A stretch of 28,701 nucleotides of DNA from a virus. Within the stretch, counting starts at the first letter, position 1. Each line of letters opens with the position of its first letter. The notes below the pieces were generated by a model. It had not been told where the DNA came from. It saw only the letters and a program-made list of their open reading frames with translations, and made no database searches. The translations under genes were made by a program, and so were the position numbers. This document shows positions 163 to 10,539 of the stretch, piece after piece. The stretch is from the IMG/VR virus record IMGVR_UViG_3300021964_000372, positions 1 to 28,701 of that record; one strand, 5' to 3'.

Positions 163-603
163 ATGATTATTGAAGCAGTAGTCTGCTTGGCACTCAACAC
201 ATACCACGAGGCAAAGAACCAAAGCCTCGTGGGACAGATTGCAGTTGCACAAGTTGTAATGAATAGAGTTAAAGATTCCAGGTATCCAAACAACATTTGT
301 GATGTTGTTAAGCAGGGCTTGACATACAAATGGAATCCTAAAATTCCTATAAAGAATCAATGCCAATTCAGTTGGTATTGTGATGGCAAAAGTGATAAAG
401 CCAAACAAAAGAAAGCATGGGAACTTGCTTTGCAAGTTGCTAATGGTGTTTACTATGGCAACCTAGACGATTTTGTCGAGGGAGCAACTCACTACCATGC
501 TCACTATGTCCAACCTAGTTGGGCAGAAACTAAGACCTATATAACAAGAATTGATGACCATATATTTTATAGATGGGATATCAATACAACTAAAAGGAAA
601 TAA
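163..603 (+). CDS. Cell-wall hydrolase, SleB/CwlJ family (Hydrolase_2), likely endolysin
   Basis: The 146-residue product matches the SleB/CwlJ-type hydrolase fold (Pfam Hydrolase_2), which cleaves the glycan strands of peptidoglycan. The family signature is visible: CLALNTYHEA near residues 8-17 with the presumed catalytic Glu16, then GQIAVAQVVMNRV (24-36), a YP..ICDVV segment (41-49) and the CQFSWYCDG block (67-75). The length fits the single domain; there is no signal peptide and no separate wall-binding domain. It would act on the host wall at lysis and would need a holin or another export route. It follows the tiny membrane protein and is followed after one base by the next gene. Family assignment is firm; the endolysin role is inferred from context. 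Confidence 0.85.
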   Translation: MIIEAVVCLALNTYHEAKNQSLVGQIAVAQVVMNRVKDSRYPNNICDVVKQGLTYKWNPKIPIKNQCQFSWYCDGKSDKAKQKKAWELALQVANGVYYGNLDDFVEGATHYHAHYVQPSWAETKTYITRIDDHIFYRWDINTTKRK

Positions 604-1755: not shown

Positions 1756-1788
1756 TTGTTTGCACAACTAAGTGCAATTTCGTATAAT
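1756..1788 (+). promoter_or_regulatory. Putative sigma-70-type promoter for tRNA-Trp and the peptidase unit, copy 2
   Basis: TTGCAC (1760-1765), a 17-base spacer and a perfect TATAAT (1783-1788) sit 10 bases upstream of the tRNA gene. The -35 is embedded in TTGTTTGCACAA (1756-1767), identical to the copy at 1087-1098 and equally spaced from its -10. The 12-mer has TTGT/ACAA dyad ends, so it could also be an operator. Confidence 0.65.
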
Positions 1789-1798
1789 TAAAGAAATC

Positions 1799-1872
1799 AG
1801 GAGTTTCGTCTAATGGAAAGACACCAAGTTCCAACCTTGAAGATGTGGGTTCGATTCCTTCAACTCCTGCCA
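1799..1872 (+). tRNA. tRNA-Trp (anticodon CCA), 3' CCA encoded
   Basis: The sequence folds as a 74-base cloverleaf. The acceptor stem AGGAGTT (1799-1805) pairs perfectly with AACTCCT (1862-1868), followed by G73 and an encoded CCA. The D stem is GTCT/AGAC with an AATGGAA loop. The anticodon stem CCAAG/CTTGA encloses the loop TTCCAAC, giving anticodon CCA for the Trp codon UGG. The T loop is TTCGATT on a GTGGG/CCTTC stem. Two imperfections are seen: a C-A pair at the outer end of the anticodon stem and a U-U in the T stem. G73 agrees with bacterial tRNA-Trp identity. It lies 10 bases after a TATAAT and is probably co-transcribed with the genes that follow. Confidence 0.85.
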
Positions 1873-1897
1873 ACCATTAAATAGAAAGGAAAAGCCA

Positions 1898-2314
1898 ATG
1901 CCTAGAGCATTCAATGACTATGAACTTGTTATAGTCAAATACAAAACTCGCTCTGACTACCTAACATTCTTTGGTGAAGTCATGGGCTACAGCGATAAGA
2001 AGTACAATGTTCGTACACTTGCAACAACAGATGGTTATTATAGAGTCAGCAAAGACTTAATTATTAAATGCCATGTGTATGAACTTCGACGAGCTTCACA
2101 AACTGACATTGACGCTATGATATATAAACAAAAATCTGTACTCGGGGGTATCATGAAAGACTTCACATATTATACAGATAATCATTATCGTAATGACAGC
2201 ATGAAGAAAGGTTTAGCATACACATCTTTTGCTTTGCAGAGATTGCTAGACCGAGACTACAAACGACGTTATGTTATCACTAACCCAATAGAAAGGAATC
2301 GCTATGTTTATTAG
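1898..2314 (+). CDS. Unknown protein, first gene of the tRNA/peptidase unit
   Basis: The 138-residue product starts MPRAFNDYELVIV after an AAAGGA site about seven bases away, 25 bases past the tRNA. It is basic and tyrosine- and arginine-rich, especially towards the C terminus (LDRDYKRRYVITNPIERNR). The first 60 residues look like a small beta-rich domain (VIVKYKTRSDYLTFFGEVMGY). I do not recognise a family. The gene overlaps the next by 11 bases, so translation of the two is probably coupled. The positive charge would suit nucleic-acid binding, but this is only a guess. Confidence 0.65.
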   Translation: MPRAFNDYELVIVKYKTRSDYLTFFGEVMGYSDKKYNVRTLATTDGYYRVSKDLIIKCHVYELRRASQTDIDAMIYKQKSVLGGIMKDFTYYTDNHYRNDSMKKGLAYTSFALQRLLDRDYKRRYVITNPIERNRYVY

Positions 2315-2894
2315 TACTGATAAAAAAATCTCCATACACAATGTGGGGCAAGAAATGACAAGACGAGAAGTTTCGACTGGTCATGTATTTCGATACATAC
2401 CGAGTAGTGGGGAAGGCTACTTGTATGCTCATTTAGATGAGTATCATAGTGTTTATTATTCTCTAAAGTTTCCTAGGAATACACCAGTATCTCCTGCAGG
2501 TATGAAAGATAAAGATTCAACTTATCCACTTAACTTCACATCAACACCTGTTCACAGTGGTAGAGTTGAAAACAAAGTTGAGATTGTTGGTCATTTTGAG
2601 TTCAATGTCGAACTCGACCAGACACCTCGACTAGCTACGTTAGGTACAATTAATGATGCACATACTGTTGTATCTTTGCGTGATGATGTTGATGGCAATG
2701 GTTATCCTCATTTGTATTTAGTTCTTGGCAGAACTCACACTGGAAACAGTGCTGACGATGTGCTTTTGATAAAGCTGACGAAAGATATATCCGTTAGTCA
2801 TAGTAAATGGGTTGCTATACAAGAACTGCCCAATTCAACTATGGTTGCCATACGAGGTCTAGCAAATGTCACAGTATATGATGGAGGTGAATGA
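2304..2894 (+). CDS. Unknown protein, beta-rich
   Basis: This encodes 196 residues from ATG 2304, with AAAGGA five bases upstream and an 11-base overlap with the previous gene. The sequence alternates hydrophobic and polar residues with many Gly, Asp and Thr (for example VSLRDDVDGNGYPHLYLVLG), suggesting an all-beta fold. No cysteine pairs, membrane spans or catalytic signature are visible. It ends with ATGA coupling to the large zinc protein downstream. I cannot assign a function. Confidence 0.65.
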   Translation: MFISTDKKISIHNVGQEMTRREVSTGHVFRYIPSSGEGYLYAHLDEYHSVYYSLKFPRNTPVSPAGMKDKDSTYPLNFTSTPVHSGRVENKVEIVGHFEFNVELDQTPRLATLGTINDAHTVVSLRDDVDGNGYPHLYLVLGRTHTGNSADDVLLIKLTKDISVSHSKWVAIQELPNSTMVAIRGLANVTVYDGGE

Positions 2895-4840
2895 TGCCCC
2901 ATCTATTGAAGTCAGATAATTATGCTAATGCAATAGTTCTTACACCTAAGTACATGAAAAAGTTAGCATTAGAAGTGAATGCAGAGATTGACAGACTAGC
3001 AGAAGAATTTAAACTACCTAAAAAACATTTTGCTAAGATGTCTACCGAAGTTCACCCACTTGTTGTGTCTGCAGCTCGTAAGTTTCGTATTCTTGCTAAA
3101 CCAGTTAGTGATTTTGCTAATGAAATACAAACTGCTTATAGAAATGTTCAAGGTATGAATAACTATACTCAAGTAGATGTGAAGTTAACACGACCAGTTA
3201 TTTGGGCAAGTAAAACACCAGAGATAAGTGGTATGCAATGTATTGCTTTTGTAAACTTAGATATACAGTCTGTTAATAATATGCACAACGAGAACCCTTG
3301 GACTCCTAATAATTGTTTAGCAATCTCTAATTCTTTAGAGCAAGATTTACAACATGAAGATAGGAAACAAGCATGGTTACCTTTTTCTCGAGGTCGTAAG
3401 CGATTGAATGTGCGAAAGCCCATGTCGCTTACTCGTGTGTTAGCTAGGTTTGTCAAAATCAATGGCAGTCTCATTGACCCAAAGACTGTGGACAATCTTG
3501 CACAGAAGATGCTTGATGTCTACAAGCCAATGGAGTTGCATGAGGCTAACGACATAGACAGCATGAGAAAGATGTATACTAAATACAGTTCAGATACTCC
3601 TGGTTCTTGTATGGATAGCACTCACGGTTTCTACATGGACAAGCCTGCCCAACCAGTTGATTGGTATGCAAAATGTCCTAACACTCGTGGATATTATGTT
3701 TCTCGTGGGGATACAGTTCTTGCTCGTACCATTGTTAATCTTAATCAAGCAGATAATAAGTGGTACTGGACTAGGATATATTCTACAAGAGATGTGTACA
3801 AGAAAGAACTAGAACAACGTCTTAAAGACCTTGACATCATATATGCCGAATCTTCTAAACAAAGTGAGATTCGTATGAGTGTTAGAGAGGTTACGTTTGA
3901 TATAGACATTGCTTACCACAATGGTAGCGAGACTTGTCCTATACCATACTTTGACTTTCTGCCTGCATCTACAATGTGGATACGAAAACATGATGACGTT
4001 ATTCAATGCTTACTCAGATGCAATGGAGCATCTCCTGAAGGCAAAAACTGGGTAGCTCCCAATCTTACAAGTACTAATGGTGCTCATGTATTTGGAGACT
4101 ATGATGAATATACTGAGTGTTATGAATGCCAAGCAGAAATATATATTGAAGGAGATGATTACATACGAGCAGTTGATGGCAACATATTTTGTTGTTCTGA
4201 CTGTGCTGGTCAAAATTACATAAGATGGCACACATCAGACAACTGTGAGTGGAGAGAATACACTCAGCCACGTGAGCATGGAGGTATCCAATGCTTTCAC
4301 GAGCCTACTGTGTTTAGTAACATTGAAGCTGGTATTCGTTCTGTAGAAGGTGTGTTTATGTATTTTCATCCTTGGGCAGATACAGAAAATGTCATCATGA
4401 GAAGTCGTTGGGCTAATGAACAAGGATGGGGCATGTCAGCAACTACACCTGTGGATGTACGTGCTAAGAATCCCATCACTGGTAATTTTTATCGTGAAGA
4501 AGGAACTGTCAAAGTGTGTTACTTTTCAAATTATCGAACTTGTTTCGGTGGTTACCAAGAACTAACTGCAGGTGGTTTTCAACCTAAGTTCCTATCTATA
4601 CAAGGTAAACGTAAACAATTTGTCAAAGCTGAACCACCAAATGAAAATTTGATAAAAGACTTTGTCAAGATAAACAAATCACGAATATTTAAATTTGATG
4701 TTCGTGGCTATGAAGCTGGGCAGATAACTAATCTATTCGATAATGCCTACATAAACTTCATGGGTACAGATAATGCCTTAAGCTGTGCCGAAACTACCCA
4801 AGGTGTAAACATAAAACAACAAACTAAGGAGGGCATATAA
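2891..4840 (+). CDS. Large unknown protein with a four-cysteine zinc site
   Basis: The product is about 649 residues. Two ATGs are possible (2891 and 2894); GGAGG at 2883-2887 is better spaced for the second. The N-terminal third is basic and helical. Around residues 238-298 there is a block, GSCM..THGFY...PVDWYA.CP... followed by ARTIV and TRIYS, of a kind I recall from other uncharacterised phage proteins. Cys410-x2-Cys413 and Cys435-x2-Cys438 look like a treble-clef or zinc-ribbon site. The C-terminal 200 residues are aromatic-rich and unassigned. It is coupled by TAATG to the metallopeptidase gene after a strong AAGGAGG site, which suggests the two proteins work together or are at least made together. 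No enzymatic motif is evident. Confidence 0.7.
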   Translation: MMPHLLKSDNYANAIVLTPKYMKKLALEVNAEIDRLAEEFKLPKKHFAKMSTEVHPLVVSAARKFRILAKPVSDFANEIQTAYRNVQGMNNYTQVDVKLTRPVIWASKTPEISGMQCIAFVNLDIQSVNNMHNENPWTPNNCLAISNSLEQDLQHEDRKQAWLPFSRGRKRLNVRKPMSLTRVLARFVKINGSLIDPKTVDNLAQKMLDVYKPMELHEANDIDSMRKMYTKYSSDTPGSCMDSTHGFYMDKPAQPVDWYAKCPNTRGYYVSRGDTVLARTIVNLNQADNKWYWTRIYSTRDVYKKELEQRLKDLDIIYAESSKQSEIRMSVREVTFDIDIAYHNGSETCPIPYFDFLPASTMWIRKHDDVIQCLLRCNGASPEGKNWVAPNLTSTNGAHVFGDYDEYTECYECQAEIYIEGDDYIRAVDGNIFCCSDCAGQNYIRWHTSDNCEWREYTQPREHGGIQCFHEPTVFSNIEAGIRSVEGVFMYFHPWADTENVIMRSRWANEQGWGMSATTPVDVRAKNPITGNFYREEGTVKVCYFSNYRTCFGGYQELTAGGFQPKFLSIQGKRKQFVKAEPPNENLIKDFVKINKSRIFKFDVRGYEAGQITNLFDNAYINFMGTDNALSCAETTQGVNIKQQTKEGI

Positions 4841-6309
4841 TGTCTCTATATAATATAAATAACTGGAGAACAGTTGAAGAACCAGAAGTCGAAACAATGA
4901 CTAAGGTAACTCGTGGTAAACAGATGGATAATTTGCTTTACGATTTACTGACCACTGTGTCACCTCACGGCAAAGAGAAATTGATAAGTGATATCATTAT
5001 GAAAGCACTTACAAGTGGCACAACCAAACGTAAGAGAAAATTTGATATGCGTATAGATGTCAAAGGTAATCTTATCATTAAGGTGGGAGACTACAAAAAA
5101 TCTAAAGTCATGTTCAGTTCTCACATGGACACTGTGCAACACAAAGTTCCAGTAGACAAGACTGACTTACGTATCACTGATGATGGCATTGTCTACGCAT
5201 CATATGATACAGACGTACACGAGTATGTGTACAAAGACAAAGTAATAACCAAAGATGAGATTGGGGACTTGGCTGAAGAGTCGGGCTTTAAGTATGCAAA
5301 CTACATTCTCATGGGCAAAAACAGTAGTAAACGTGTTTATGGTTCAGACAATGAGTTTGACGACTGGCAAGCTACTGACATAGTTGTTGATACTCAAACA
5401 CAAGTCAAACCCGTATCAAGTGTACTCGGTGCAGATGACAAACTAGGTTGTTACATTATGTGTAGGCTAATCATGAATGGCACAGATGGTCTGTATGTAT
5501 TCCACATTGGCGAAGAGTGTGGTGGTATCGGCTCAAACTATATTTCTACTCAAACTCCTGAACTTGTTGAGGGTATGAACTATTGTATTGCTTTTGACCG
5601 ATATGAGTATGGACACATTATTACTCATCAAGCTGGTGGTCGTTGTTGTTCAGATGATTTTGTTGCTGGTCTGGCTGGAAAGCTGAATCCTTTGCTCCCT
5701 CCAAAAGAGCAGATGTCTGGCAACAGTGGTGGCTCATTTACTGACTCAGCTAACTACACCAAGCTGATACCAGAGTGTACTAATGTTTCAGTCAGTTACA
5801 AAAGTCAGCACACAAGGCGTGAGAACTTTGACTTAGTATGGTTCAGAGATATTCTTGTTCCTGCTTTGTTGAAGATAACTTGGCATGATTTGCCAGTAGC
5901 CAGAGACCCGAACGAGGTGTCCTCCCCCTACAGTTCGAGTTACCGTTCGAAATACCAAGACTCGTTTTCATTCGACAGGTCATACAAATCGAACAAGAAC
6001 ACGAGGTCTATGGTTTCAACAAGGAGCACTCTCACGAACTCGGAACGTATGAACCAATCTGCAATCGACAGATGCAATCATGTGCTTGACGATAAGTTCG
6101 AGGGATATGACCCAGAGGAAGGTCTGCCACAACACATGAGTTGTAAACAGAAAGTAGACTTTGTTAAATATACTTTCGTTAAAAACAATCTCAATCTTGA
6201 AGATATGGCTGAGATGGTTGTTGATGCAGAAGAAGAAGCAATCAAGAGAACTGAACTTGATACCTATGGATTAGGTTCATCTTATCACTCAGGTTTCTAT
6301 GAGTATTAA
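4840..6309 (+). CDS. Zinc-dependent peptidase/deacylase of the M20/M28/M42 type
   Basis: The product is 489 residues. The core (about 30-345) carries a complete co-catalytic metal site in the order typical of M20/M28/M42 enzymes: His95-x-Asp97 (FSSHMDTV), Asp199/Asp200 (LGADDKLGCY), Glu225-Glu226 (HIGEECGGIGS), Asp253 (AFDRY) and His324 (KSQHTRREN). These enzymes remove N-terminal residues or acyl groups from small peptides in the cytoplasm. A Ser/Tyr/Arg-rich, probably disordered linker follows (about 356-400), then an acidic helical C-terminal domain. There is no signal peptide. It starts by TAATG overlap with the 649-residue gene and ends just before a terminator. The substrate is unknown. 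Such enzymes are unusual in phages, where modifying or trimming host peptides is conceivable. Confidence 0.8.
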   Translation: MSLYNINNWRTVEEPEVETMTKVTRGKQMDNLLYDLLTTVSPHGKEKLISDIIMKALTSGTTKRKRKFDMRIDVKGNLIIKVGDYKKSKVMFSSHMDTVQHKVPVDKTDLRITDDGIVYASYDTDVHEYVYKDKVITKDEIGDLAEESGFKYANYILMGKNSSKRVYGSDNEFDDWQATDIVVDTQTQVKPVSSVLGADDKLGCYIMCRLIMNGTDGLYVFHIGEECGGIGSNYISTQTPELVEGMNYCIAFDRYEYGHIITHQAGGRCCSDDFVAGLAGKLNPLLPPKEQMSGNSGGSFTDSANYTKLIPECTNVSVSYKSQHTRRENFDLVWFRDILVPALLKITWHDLPVARDPNEVSSPYSSSYRSKYQDSFSFDRSYKSNKNTRSMVSTRSTLTNSERMNQSAIDRCNHVLDDKFEGYDPEEGLPQHMSCKQKVDFVKYTFVKNNLNLEDMAEMVVDAEEEAIKRTELDTYGLGSSYHSGFYEY

Positions 6310-6325
6310 TAGTTGCCTCCCCCTG

Positions 6326-6361
6326 CCCCCATTGGCTTTTGTCAGTGGGGGTATTTTTTTT
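6326..6361 (+). terminator. Rho-independent terminator of the tRNA/peptidase unit
   Basis: CCCCCATTG (6326-6334) pairs with CAGTGGGGG (6343-6351) as a 9-bp stem with one wobble and an 8-base loop, followed by TA and eight T (6354-6361). It begins 16 bases after the peptidase stop codon, and its T-run ends just before the next promoter. Confidence 0.9.
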
Positions 6362-6362
6362 A

Positions 6363-6391
6363 TTGACGTAATTTAAAAGCTGTGATATAAG
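6363..6391 (+). promoter_or_regulatory. Strong sigma-70-type promoter for the replication operon
   Basis: TTGACG (6363-6368) and TATAAG (6386-6391) are separated by exactly 17 bases. Each matches five of six consensus bases, and a TG at 6383-6384 gives an extended -10. It lies directly after the terminator T-run and 44 bases before the primase start. It does not contain the TTGTTTGCACAA element of the two upstream promoters. Confidence 0.75.
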
Positions 6392-7202: not shown

Positions 7203-8398
7203 TTAAACTCCTGATGCACAAAGAATTTTTTGATGCAAACAAGACTCGTGTCATGCGTTCAATGTTTCCTAATGAGTTAACAGACTTATATGATACCATT
7301 GTAAATGGACATGAGAACTACGAAAGGGACTTATCCTCACAAGAAGTGAGAGAGATATATAGAGTCAGTAATCCGACTGCCACTCGTGCAAAACGAGAAG
7401 CTGTGGCTGAGGTATTATATGACATAGAGAATTTACCTACTATAGGTTCTGACGTAGCTACTGATGTATTGAAAAAGATGTGGCAACAGGAGATAGGGCG
7501 TAACATCGCAGATATGGGGCTTGCCATTATGGAAGGCTCACCAGAAAAAATTCATGAAGTAAAAGCCTTGTTAGATAAATCAGAGCAAGGCTTTGTACCA
7601 GAAGATGATGTAACTCCGATTACAACTGACCTAGATGAGTTACTAGAATATGCACAAAATGAAAACTGTTGGGAGTTCAATGTACCGACATTAGGTAAGG
7701 CAGTTCGTGGTGGTAAGGCAGGAGAGTTTATGATTGCTTTTGCCAGACCTGAGATTGGTAAGACTGCTTTCTATGTTTCACTTGTGGCATCACCAAACGG
7801 GTTCTGTTCACAAGGTGCAGATGTTCACATCATCACTAACGAAGAGCCTGCACGTAGAACTATGCTCCGTGCAGTAAGTGCATACACTGGGTTCAGTGAA
7901 GAAGATATATATAAGAATCGTTCACAAGCTAAACAAAAGTTTGCAGACATTGCTCCTAACATAACTATGATTGACAATGTAGATGCATCTATTGAGTGGC
8001 TTAATAAGTATTGTGAAGATAAAAAGCCTGACGTATTGATTGTTGACCAACTAGACAAGGTTGATGTGATGGGGGCTTTTGCAAGGACAGATGAGAAGTT
8101 ACGTAGCATATACACAAAGTTTCGTGAGATATGTAAACGTCATGATTTGTTTGGTATTGGCATCAGTCAAGCTAGTGCTGATGCTGAGGGTAAGACAAGT
8201 GTTACTTATGCTATGATGGAGAACAGTAAGACAGGTAAAGCTGCAGAAGCTGACCTAATCGTAGGCATCGGTAAATCTGATATTACTGACAATACTGATA
8301 AGAAAAGATACTTAACTATATCAAAGAATAAATTAACAGGTTTCCATGGCAAAATCATTTGCAACTTGGACACAGATTTGAGTAGGTATACAGCATGA
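7187..8398 (+). CDS. Replicative DNA helicase, DnaB/T7 gp4-like RecA fold (SF4)
   Basis: The 403-residue product has a helical N-terminal region (about 1-140) and a RecA-type ATPase domain. Walker A is ARPEIGKT (186-193), the catalytic glutamate region is TNEE (217-220), Walker B is VLIVDQLD (283-290), and a SQAS stretch (327-330) fits motif H3. Such hexameric 5'-3' helicases unwind DNA ahead of the polymerase and recruit primase. It overlaps primase by 16 bases and is joined by ATGA to the polymerase gene, so the three replisome genes are translationally linked. No zinc or TOPRIM domain is fused to it. Confidence 0.88.
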   Translation: MEQQLIKLLMHKEFFDANKTRVMRSMFPNELTDLYDTIVNGHENYERDLSSQEVREIYRVSNPTATRAKREAVAEVLYDIENLPTIGSDVATDVLKKMWQQEIGRNIADMGLAIMEGSPEKIHEVKALLDKSEQGFVPEDDVTPITTDLDELLEYAQNENCWEFNVPTLGKAVRGGKAGEFMIAFARPEIGKTAFYVSLVASPNGFCSQGADVHIITNEEPARRTMLRAVSAYTGFSEEDIYKNRSQAKQKFADIAPNITMIDNVDASIEWLNKYCEDKKPDVLIVDQLDKVDVMGAFARTDEKLRSIYTKFREICKRHDLFGIGISQASADAEGKTSVTYAMMENSKTGKAAEADLIVGIGKSDITDNTDKKRYLTISKNKLTGFHGKIICNLDTDLSRYTA

Positions 8399-10539
8399 CA
8401 ATAACGTATTTAGACGTAGAGACTACATTTGTGGTTGATGAGAATAGGAGAACAGACCCATCACCATTTAATGCAAATAATAAATTAGTATCAGTTCAAT
8501 ATTCACATGATAATGGACCGATAGAATTTAAGTGGTTTTATCATAAGGACATGGACGAAATTTCATCTGAAATGACTGTGGGAGAATCATTCAATTTAGT
8601 GCAAGATGTATTAGATAAGACCACTGTACTAATAGGTCACAATATTAAATTTGACTTGGTATGGCTTTGGGAAAGTGGCTTTAATTATGATGGACAAGTG
8701 TACGACACTATGATTGGCGAATATATTTTGATGCGTGGACAGAAGTGGGGCTTGAGTTTAGCTGACTCTTGTATACGCAGGAAAGTAGCTTTAAAGAAGT
8801 CTGACTTGATTCACAATTATATGAAAGATGGTATTGGCTTTGATACTATGCCTATGGACGTAGTCCAGGAGTATGGTGTGGCAGATATTGAATCGACAAA
8901 ACAATTACATCTTGCACAAGAAGAGATTTTTAAAAATTCACATAATTCACCGATGCGAAAGCATTTGGCGTTGATGAATAAGTTTCTTCCTATATTAGCT
9001 GTGATTGAACGCAACGGCATCAAGATTGACTTCACAACTCTTGAGAAAGTTCGTGCCGATTACGAGATTGAACAGAAAGAACTCAAAGCTAAGATGGAAG
9101 ATATATGTCGTGAAGTTATGGGCGATACAAATATAAATTTTGCATCTCCAGAGCAAGTAAGTCAGTTGATTTACTCACGTAAAGTTATTGATAAGAAGAA
9201 GTGGGCTGAAGCATTTAATATAGGTCTTAATGAAAAGGGTAAACCTTTGATGCGACCTCGTATTGGCTTCCCACAATTTGCATCAATGATTAAAGCTATG
9301 ACAACTCGTGTTCACAGAACTAAAGCACAACATTGTCACAAGTGTCATGGTAAAGGCGAGTTCTTCAAAACTAAGAAGGACGGACAGAGATGGAAGAAGG
9401 CTACAAAATGTCCTGCATGTTTTGGTGCAGGTTATATTTATATACCTCTTCCTAAAATTGGTGGACTAACCATGAATCCAAGAGATATTATGGATGTGTC
9501 TGCTAACGGATTTGCTACTGACAAAACAACATTAGTGAGATTACTAGGAATTGCCAAACATAATGGAAATATTAAAGCACAAGAGTTCCTCAAATCTACT
9601 GTAAGGTTAAATGCGGTTGACGTATATTTATCCAGTTTTGTTGGTGGCATTTCTCGTAATACTAGAAGTAATGGTTTATTACATCCAAAGTTCAATCAGT
9701 GTGTTACTAGGACTACTCGCTTGTCTTCTTCTGACCCTAACTTTCAGAATCAGCCAAGAGGTTCTACTTTCCCAGTGAGAGCTGTGGTTGTATCTAGGTT
9801 TGACAATGGCTCTATTCTACAAGCAGATTATAGTCAATTAGAATTTAGGATTGCCGCTCAGTTATGTGGTGATGAAACCATGATTAAGGACATCATGAAC
9901 GGAAGTGATGTTCACAAATATACTGCTTCAATTATATTTAATAAGCCAGAGGCAGAAGTGACTAAAGAAGAACGTACTGATGCAAAAGCACATACCTTTA
10001 AGCCCTTATATGGGGGTACTACTGGTACACCTAATGAGATGGAATACTATAAAGCTTTTGTAGACAAGTACCCAAAACTAGGAAAATGGCATGATACTTT
10101 ACAGACTGAAGCTATATCGAATGGTGTTGTTACTATGTATACCGGTCAGCAATTCGCTTTTCCGGATACTAGACGGCTTTCCAACGGAAATGCGTCAGGA
10201 GCACCGTCTATTAAGAATTATCCTGTCCAAGGTCTTGCAGGTGGTTGCGTTGTGCCGTTGGCACTCATTCACTTGCAAAACGAACTTACAAATAAAAGAG
10301 TTGCGTCTAAGATTATTAATACAGTCCACGACTCGATTGTTTTAGATGTATATCCTGGTGAAGAAGAGGTTGTAGCACGTATGACTTATGATGCTATGAC
10401 TAAAGTAGACAAGCAGTTTGAGGAGCAATACAACGTCAGTTGGCAAGTTCCTTTAGCTGTGGATTTAGAAATAGGTAAAGATTGGTTAAATATGAAAGAA
10501 TATAACTTGACTAACTCTGCCGAATGTAATATAAATTGA
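8395..10539 (+). CDS. polA: Family A DNA polymerase with a DnaJ-like zinc insert (HMO-2011 type)
   Basis: The product is 714 residues. The 3'-5' exonuclease domain has Asp7/Glu9 (YLDVETT), Asp87 (GHNIKFDL) and Tyr160...Asp164 (YGVAD). The polymerase domain has motif A LQADYSQLE (Asp478), motif B R527-x3-K531-x3-F535 ending LYGG, and motif C VHDS (His645-Asp646). Between them, two CxxCxGxG repeats (Cys314/Cys317 and Cys339/Cys342) form half of a DnaJ-type central zinc module. An atypical PolA with such an insert was described for SAR116 phage HMO-2011. Phe535 is at the position of E. coli Pol I Phe762. There is no 5' nuclease domain, as in T7-type polymerases. It replicates the phage genome together with the helicase and primase just upstream. 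Confidence 0.95.
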   Translation: MTITYLDVETTFVVDENRRTDPSPFNANNKLVSVQYSHDNGPIEFKWFYHKDMDEISSEMTVGESFNLVQDVLDKTTVLIGHNIKFDLVWLWESGFNYDGQVYDTMIGEYILMRGQKWGLSLADSCIRRKVALKKSDLIHNYMKDGIGFDTMPMDVVQEYGVADIESTKQLHLAQEEIFKNSHNSPMRKHLALMNKFLPILAVIERNGIKIDFTTLEKVRADYEIEQKELKAKMEDICREVMGDTNINFASPEQVSQLIYSRKVIDKKKWAEAFNIGLNEKGKPLMRPRIGFPQFASMIKAMTTRVHRTKAQHCHKCHGKGEFFKTKKDGQRWKKATKCPACFGAGYIYIPLPKIGGLTMNPRDIMDVSANGFATDKTTLVRLLGIAKHNGNIKAQEFLKSTVRLNAVDVYLSSFVGGISRNTRSNGLLHPKFNQCVTRTTRLSSSDPNFQNQPRGSTFPVRAVVVSRFDNGSILQADYSQLEFRIAAQLCGDETMIKDIMNGSDVHKYTASIIFNKPEAEVTKEERTDAKAHTFKPLYGGTTGTPNEMEYYKAFVDKYPKLGKWHDTLQTEAISNGVVTMYTGQQFAFPDTRRLSNGNASGAPSIKNYPVQGLAGGCVVPLALIHLQNELTNKRVASKIINTVHDSIVLDVYPGEEEVVARMTYDAMTKVDKQFEEQYNVSWQVPLAVDLEIGKDWLNMKEYNLTNSAECNIN

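Follow-up and report, generated by a model that had tools for sequence, protein, structure and literature searches.

The virus record IMGVR_UViG_3300021964_000372 carries a gene for a predicted metallopeptidase directly behind a gene for a large protein of no sequence-recognised family, which raises the question of whether the two genes work together and what they might do. The complete record of 28,701 nucleotides, itself probably a fragment (related isolates, approximately 53–55 kb), was analyzed and is referred to below as the window. The two genes lie at 2891–4840 (649 residues) and 4840–6309 (489 residues), on the plus strand like all features of the window given a strand here. The larger protein and its homologues were named SCM proteins after an invariant Ser-Cys-Met motif. 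It is strongly supported that the SCM and peptidase genes belong together, and because the same gene pair recurs in many unrelated phages, the comparisons point to a widespread phage system. With the window copy, families already catalogued but not yet characterised gain a new member.

The linkage was evaluated in viral loci with at least 1.6 kb of sequence upstream of the peptidase gene, where an SCM open reading frame (ORF) of at least 300 residues was sought on the same strand within three ORFs upstream. Such an ORF was present in 76 of 81 loci, mostly overlapping the peptidase gene or at most 20 bases from it. A six-frame search with the SCM profiles recovered L063, L064, L084, and L093, as well as L109, which was outside the original 81; thus, only L116 was left without a partner, giving 81 of 82 loci, some of which are near-duplicates. 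The Ser-Cys-Met string occurred in only 3 of 221 other ORFs of at least 300 residues, of which those in L061 and L093 matched the SCM profiles and that in L095 was the open-ended partner of its own peptidase. Over all scanned loci, both families were found in 120, the peptidase only in 23 (many cut at a contig end), and the SCM protein only in none, a zero count that is biased because most of the loci were collected through peptidase searches. Moreover, the record counts of the two proteins agreed almost one to one in cultured phages of Klebsiella (231/230), Vibrio (42/42), Escherichia (10/10), and Shigella (4/4).

The pair was found in Klebsiella and Vibrio phages, marine HMO-2011-type phages, crAss-like phages, Thermus phages, and a 634-kb phage, and it was near-universal in Drulisvirus-type phages. 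The order was reversed, to peptidase-SCM, in the 634-kb phage and in the crAss-like Cellulophaga phage phi38:1, in which the peptidase gp038 is followed by gp037, a match to the giant-phage SCM protein. Since the adjacency survives rearrangement of order and copy number, a joint function is strongly indicated. The first-pass annotation of this DNA had paired the 649- and 489-residue proteins and named two outcomes that would contradict the pairing; homologues were clearly not far apart, and a metal site was clearly not lacking. The neighbours of the pair were heterogeneous across phages, with replication genes only modestly recurrent, and gene context was accordingly rejected as a guide to function. 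Several loci showed other arrangements of the pair. Thermus phage TSP4 has an SCM-peptidase-SCM triad (L148:2386-5543), and Mesorhizobium sp. STM 4661 has two SCM-peptidase pairs (L124:1-6651), possibly in a prophage. In L084 (3148–4713), the SCM gene is split between two neighbouring open frames, with the peptidase gene intact behind them, reflecting a premature stop, read-through, or an assembly error. Giant phages of 634–735 kb (LR745206, LR756501-LR756504; L141:19863-22256) have 7–15 SCM places per genome, an expansion of copy number.

As judged from its sequence, the 489-residue protein is a predicted co-catalytic metallopeptidase of clan MH (M28/M42/PepT-like) with a full ligand set. The PHROG 4191 'peptidase' profile matched it with an E-value of 1.2e-61, the best stretch being residues 189–419. 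The presence of all metal ligands of an M20/M28/M42 enzyme, as annotated at first pass, was borne out: H95, D97, D199, E225/E226, D253, and H324 (codons within 5122–5811) were invariant in 14 homologues, Autographiviridae included, and in the comparison of the peptidase profile with the Protein Data Bank (PDB), the HxD, GADD, EE, and H motifs aligned with those of peptidase T and the M42 TET aminopeptidases. These motifs are also shared with [LysW]-lysine hydrolase, the best NCBIfam match (6e-7), whereas the window peptidase falls far below the cut-offs of these families. In Pfam, it scored 22.3 bits against M42 (cut-off, 23.2), and its homologue in phage Gaspode scored 29.1 against M28 (cut-off, 21.3). 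The gap of 71 residues between D253 and H324 is too short for a large M20-type lid domain. Like the PHROG 4191 peptidases of Autographiviridae (PhiM1_10, Drulisvirus, Maculvirus), the window protein has the metal ligands, a site before the primase-helicase-polymerase genes, and an upstream partner. Unlike those proteins of approximately 330–370 residues, it is longer (489) and shows both an insertion ahead of the LGADD motif and a C-terminal extension, the latter present in the marine subgroup.

A complete peptidase of this class had been regarded as unexpected in a lytic phage, which proved wrong. Among cultured phage records, 364 matched the window peptidase and 375 matched a homologue, mostly from Klebsiella, Pectobacterium, and Vibrio phages; most belong to lytic Autographiviridae, and many are already annotated as 'peptidase', 'Zn-peptidase', or 'M28'. 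In PhiM1-like phages, the peptidase belongs to a set of six early genes that are conserved (PMC6115819). By comparison, the genomes of 84,980 bacterial and archaeal species yielded only 20 peptidase loci, in a search that can detect a homologue only if it has either of two conserved stretches. The PHROG 4191-type peptidase is thus, by these counts, essentially a phage family.

The 649-residue protein matched no recognised family in Pfam and PHROG profile searches, and a search with a single SCM protein returned four close loci. However, PHROGs 13313 and 6980, two families of unknown function encoded directly upstream of the Autographiviridae peptidase, were homologous to it in the core (hhalign probability 94%, E 9e-8). 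The shared features are Ser-Cys-Met, P255, Y259, R279, Y297, PYxD, and a Cys4 site, in the common core order SCM-P-Y-R-Y / PYxD / Cys4, while the N-terminal region is unrelated or too divergent to align, and overall identity is low. The window protein was placed in the SCM family on its Ser-Cys-Met, Y, R, PYxD, and Cys4 invariants and its adjacency to the peptidase. Ten residues, with S, C, Y, R, and D among them, were invariant in 55 of 55 homologues; as this set was gathered partly by the SCM string, the invariance of Ser-Cys-Met itself (residues 239–241; 3605–3613) is somewhat circular, which does not apply to the other invariant residues. The Cys4 site reported at first pass (C410, C413, C434, and C438; 4118–4204) also held up. 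Its C410 and C438 were conserved in all 55 homologues, C413 in 54, and C434 in 47, and the zinc-ribbon-like site weakly resembles the zinc sites of L24e and LIM. A LysW-like carrier role for the Cys4 site was considered and rejected because the Pfam E-value was only 0.57, and the [LysW]-lysine hydrolase match of the peptidase was taken as a coincidence.

An AlphaFold2 model of the 649-residue protein was built from 55 sequences and had a mean predicted local distance difference test (pLDDT) score of 79, with values above 90 in the core. On comparing this model with the PDB using Foldseek, all 50 listed matches had the GNAT fold, including PCAF, RimI, aminoglycoside acetyltransferases (AAC), and FemX, with probabilities of up to 1.0. 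A separate model of a 429-residue SCM homologue (approximately 14% identical; pLDDT 90.8) likewise gave GNAT-fold proteins as its listed PDB matches; both FemX and A-PGS were among the structural matches of the SCM models. In a viral structure library, the leading matches were uncharacterised proteins of phages, among them one of SCM type from Pectobacterium phage Nobby, followed by GNATs. Thus, the agreement of two models weakly supports a GNAT-like core for the predicted SCM structure, which the scores alone would not. The view of the protein as one of no known function was accordingly revised in part: it is no longer featureless, its core being modelled as GNAT-like. It differs from the GNAT superfamily in lacking both the coenzyme A (CoA) pyrophosphate loop and detectable sequence similarity and in having a fused Cys4 site and its own SCM motif. 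As the [RQ]xxGx[GA] loop is absent, the sequences make a plain acetyl-CoA enzyme unlikely.

The evolution of the block was examined by comparing the nonsynonymous (dN) and synonymous (dS) substitution rates of the window with those of L004, L005, and L007. The genes for the 138-, 196-, and 649-residue proteins, the first two of which lie upstream of the pair, had dS values approximately two to three times those of the adjacent replication genes, with a smaller excess for L007. Their dN/dS ratios were 0.20–0.34, against 0.02–0.15 for the replication genes, and the peptidase was intermediate at 0.17–0.24; for the SCM and peptidase proteins together, the ratios were 0.17–0.30. These ratios place all genes of the block under purifying selection. 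The high dS of the genes at 1898–4840 relative to the replication genes beside them suggests that the block is exchanged as a cassette, and its evolution resembles that of genes in contact with the host.

The best explanation of these results is that the pair would be a modifier and a peptidase that work on a common substrate during early infection, to which we assign a probability of about 0.42. Homology, the near-obligate adjacency, the full metal site, the invariant enzyme-like residues, purifying selection, and the two GNAT-like models are its observed basis, from which we infer a conserved two-enzyme phage module that would be expressed before replication. The SCM protein would be a GNAT-like transferase with a zinc site, moving an acyl or aminoacyl group onto amines of host (or phage) proteins or peptides in a way that would bypass the usual CoA loop. 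The MH-clan peptidase would act on the same substrates, removing either N-terminal residues or the group that had been added, and as a result, selected host proteins would be rewired or inactivated during takeover. Among the roles proposed at first pass, the best fit is trimming or de-modification in combination with a modifier. A partial precedent is Rac of phiKMV, a GNAT that triggers cleavage of the alpha subunit of host RNA polymerase (PMC7552054), a result that led other authors to suggest host proteins as targets of phage peptidases (PMC7824862). Both cases would involve a podophage GNAT-type protein leading to cleavage of a host protein. However, Rac has a pocket for acetyl-CoA and presumably relies on proteases of the host, whereas the SCM protein has no CoA loop and is accompanied by a phage peptidase.

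Several results weigh against this explanation. The structural matches were weak, with best E-values of 5e-3 and 1.4e-2 for the two models, none below 1e-3, and template modeling scores by target mostly of 0.2–0.5. No GNAT match for the SCM proteins was obtained in Pfam, NCBIfam, or PDB-sequence profile searches, and the acyl-CoA loop was absent after beta4, with only 3 of 55 and 4 of 43 alignment rows matching its pattern anywhere nearby; given the missing loop, the SCM protein may be non-enzymatic or may use another donor. The distance matrices of the SCM and peptidase proteins were correlated (r = 0.91; permutation maximum, 0.14), which speaks for the pairing but partly reflects shared phage ancestry. 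Moreover, the giant phages have only 4–5 peptidase places beside their numerous SCM places, so one-to-one working is not required, and no substrate is indicated by the data. A broader form of the explanation, in which the SCM proteins would be a new GNAT-derived enzyme class without the CoA loop that provides, with the peptidase, phage-wide reversible (amino)acylation of proteins or peptides and has expanded in giant phages, is considered rather unlikely.

Counter-defence is the rival that survives best, although it too is unlikely. Here the transferase would cap, or the peptidase degrade, the effector of a defence based on a peptide, an aminoacyl product, or a modified protein, much as protection from microcin C is conferred by MccE, a GNAT, and MccF, a peptidase. 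The dN and dS of the 138-196-SCM block, well above those of the flanking replication genes, suggest fast allelic exchange, and the expanded SCM copy number of giant phages is consistent with this role. The pair is also patchy in related phages: neither pair profile matched in the first 12–13 kb of HTVC033P, HMO-2011, and CRP-1, and the pair is therefore accessory within the HMO-2011-type lineage. However, its near-universal presence in Drulisvirus-type phages is more like a core early function, a PADLOC profile search gave no significant match (E 0.04–0.06 only), and no known defence is indicated.

Reversible aminoacylation is a special form of the modifier-peptidase explanation and on its own seems improbable. 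In the manner of FemX, A-PGS, or Leu/Phe-transferase, the SCM protein would transfer an amino acid from aminoacyl-tRNA to a protein or peptide, from which the peptidase, as an aminopeptidase, would remove it. FemX and A-PGS among the model matches, the missing CoA loop, the presence of transfer RNA (tRNA) genes near several marine loci, and the fact that M28/M42 enzymes are mostly aminopeptidases all fit this scheme. However, conservation of the pair does not extend to the tRNA genes, and FemX is just one of many GNAT types matched. Little probability was likewise given to peptide scavenging, in which peptides of the host, broken down by the peptidase, would supply amino acids for phage synthesis, with the SCM protein as a zinc adaptor or regulator. 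PepT/M42-like peptidases, which the window peptidase matches, typically digest small peptides, but scavenging leaves both the ten invariant SCM residues and the near-obligate pairing unexplained. Modification of nucleic acids is less probable still. The GNAT-like fold with its fused zinc site and the replication genes that adjoin the pair in several groups would suit an SCM protein that modifies phage DNA or tRNA through its zinc site, as GNAT-fold Mom, with its precedent in jumbo phages (PMC7824862), does on adenine, the peptidase then trimming an amino-acid adduct. Against this, none of the genes beside the pair was recognised as a partner in base modification, and in other phages, the neighbours vary. 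Finally, a virion maturation protease with its scaffold is highly improbable: many phage peptidases do mature virions (PMC7824862), but these genes lie in the early region before the primase, in the window and in Autographiviridae, away from the structural genes. The MH clan also consists mostly of exopeptidases.

In the literature searched, with subscription papers and preprints outside the search, no description was found of the two genes as a pair that spans phages irrespective of gene order and includes a GNAT-like zinc protein. PMC6115819 does no more than name the peptidase, and the closest ideas come from the work on Rac (PMC7552054) and from comments about GNATs and peptidases of phages (PMC7824862). 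At best, the two genes carry separate annotations, one as 'peptidase' and the other as 'hypothetical'. A two-gene cassette common to such diverse phages is likely to have a general function in host takeover or counter-defence, and the pairing makes this function directly testable in cultured laboratory phages.

The expression unit around the pair was also as first annotated, with a TATAAT promoter, a tRNA-Trp, four coupled genes, a strong terminator, and a replication promoter two bases further on. The sigma70-like promoter TTTGCA-18-TATAAT (1759–1788) matches the consensus at 10 of 12 positions and is kept in close relatives, being identical in L002 and L005 and having one change in the -10 hexamer in L004. 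It is followed by the tRNA-Trp gene (1799–1872; anticodon CCA, 3' CCA encoded), and then by four ORFs that overlap or abut, namely those for the 138-residue (1898–2314) and 196-residue (2304–2894) proteins, both of unknown function, and the SCM and peptidase genes. The 138-residue protein is found in the marine HMO-2011-type subgroup, in which the gene for the 196-residue protein lies directly upstream of the SCM gene. Homology of these small upstream genes to PHROG 6167 of Autographiviridae was rejected because the alignments looked different in a by-eye comparison. The intrinsic terminator (6324–6361) has a 13-bp stem (6324–6353) and a T8 tract; the stem reached -23.7 kcal/mol (z = -4.6), with no shuffled sequence equally stable, and its pairing is preserved in relatives through changes on both arms (ATTGG/TCAGT to ATCGG/TCGGT in the DNA alignment). 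Two bases past the T tract starts the promoter-like element of the primase-helicase-polymerase genes, TTGACG-17-TATAAG (6363–6391), recognised from sequence and conservation. Across nine loci its -35 core TTGAC is invariant and its -10 varies, and the promoter scan had passed over it because the sixth -10 base is G.

The description of this region as a self-contained unit is only partly right: the two large genes alone make up the widely conserved unit, and the promoter, the tRNA, and the two small genes belong to the marine subgroup. Across relatives, the terminator is kept, while the promoter at 1759–1788 and the accessory tRNA-Trp occur in the closest relatives only. Other loci have no tRNA or a tRNA-Glu further upstream; in L013, L014, L015, L032, L044, and L055, tRNA-Glu(ttc) stands in place of tRNA-Trp upstream of the same operon. 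The tRNA-Trp was thus rejected as a component of the mechanism because other loci with the genes lack it or have tRNA-Glu instead.

The family A DNA polymerase of the window (8395–10539) carries a DnaJ-type CXXCXGXG zinc insertion like that of HMO-2011-type phages and is 37–47% identical to their polymerases (HTVC033P, 46.8%; CRP phages; HMO-2011). With this insertion and the primase-helicase-polymerase order, the window was assigned to the HMO-2011-type podophages. Upstream of the operon, an 82-residue DksA/TraR-like zinc-finger protein (1153–1401) is conserved in the marine relatives with sequence there, and a cell wall hydrolase (Hydrolase_2, E 1e-26), likely a lysis gene, lies at the left end of the window (163–603).

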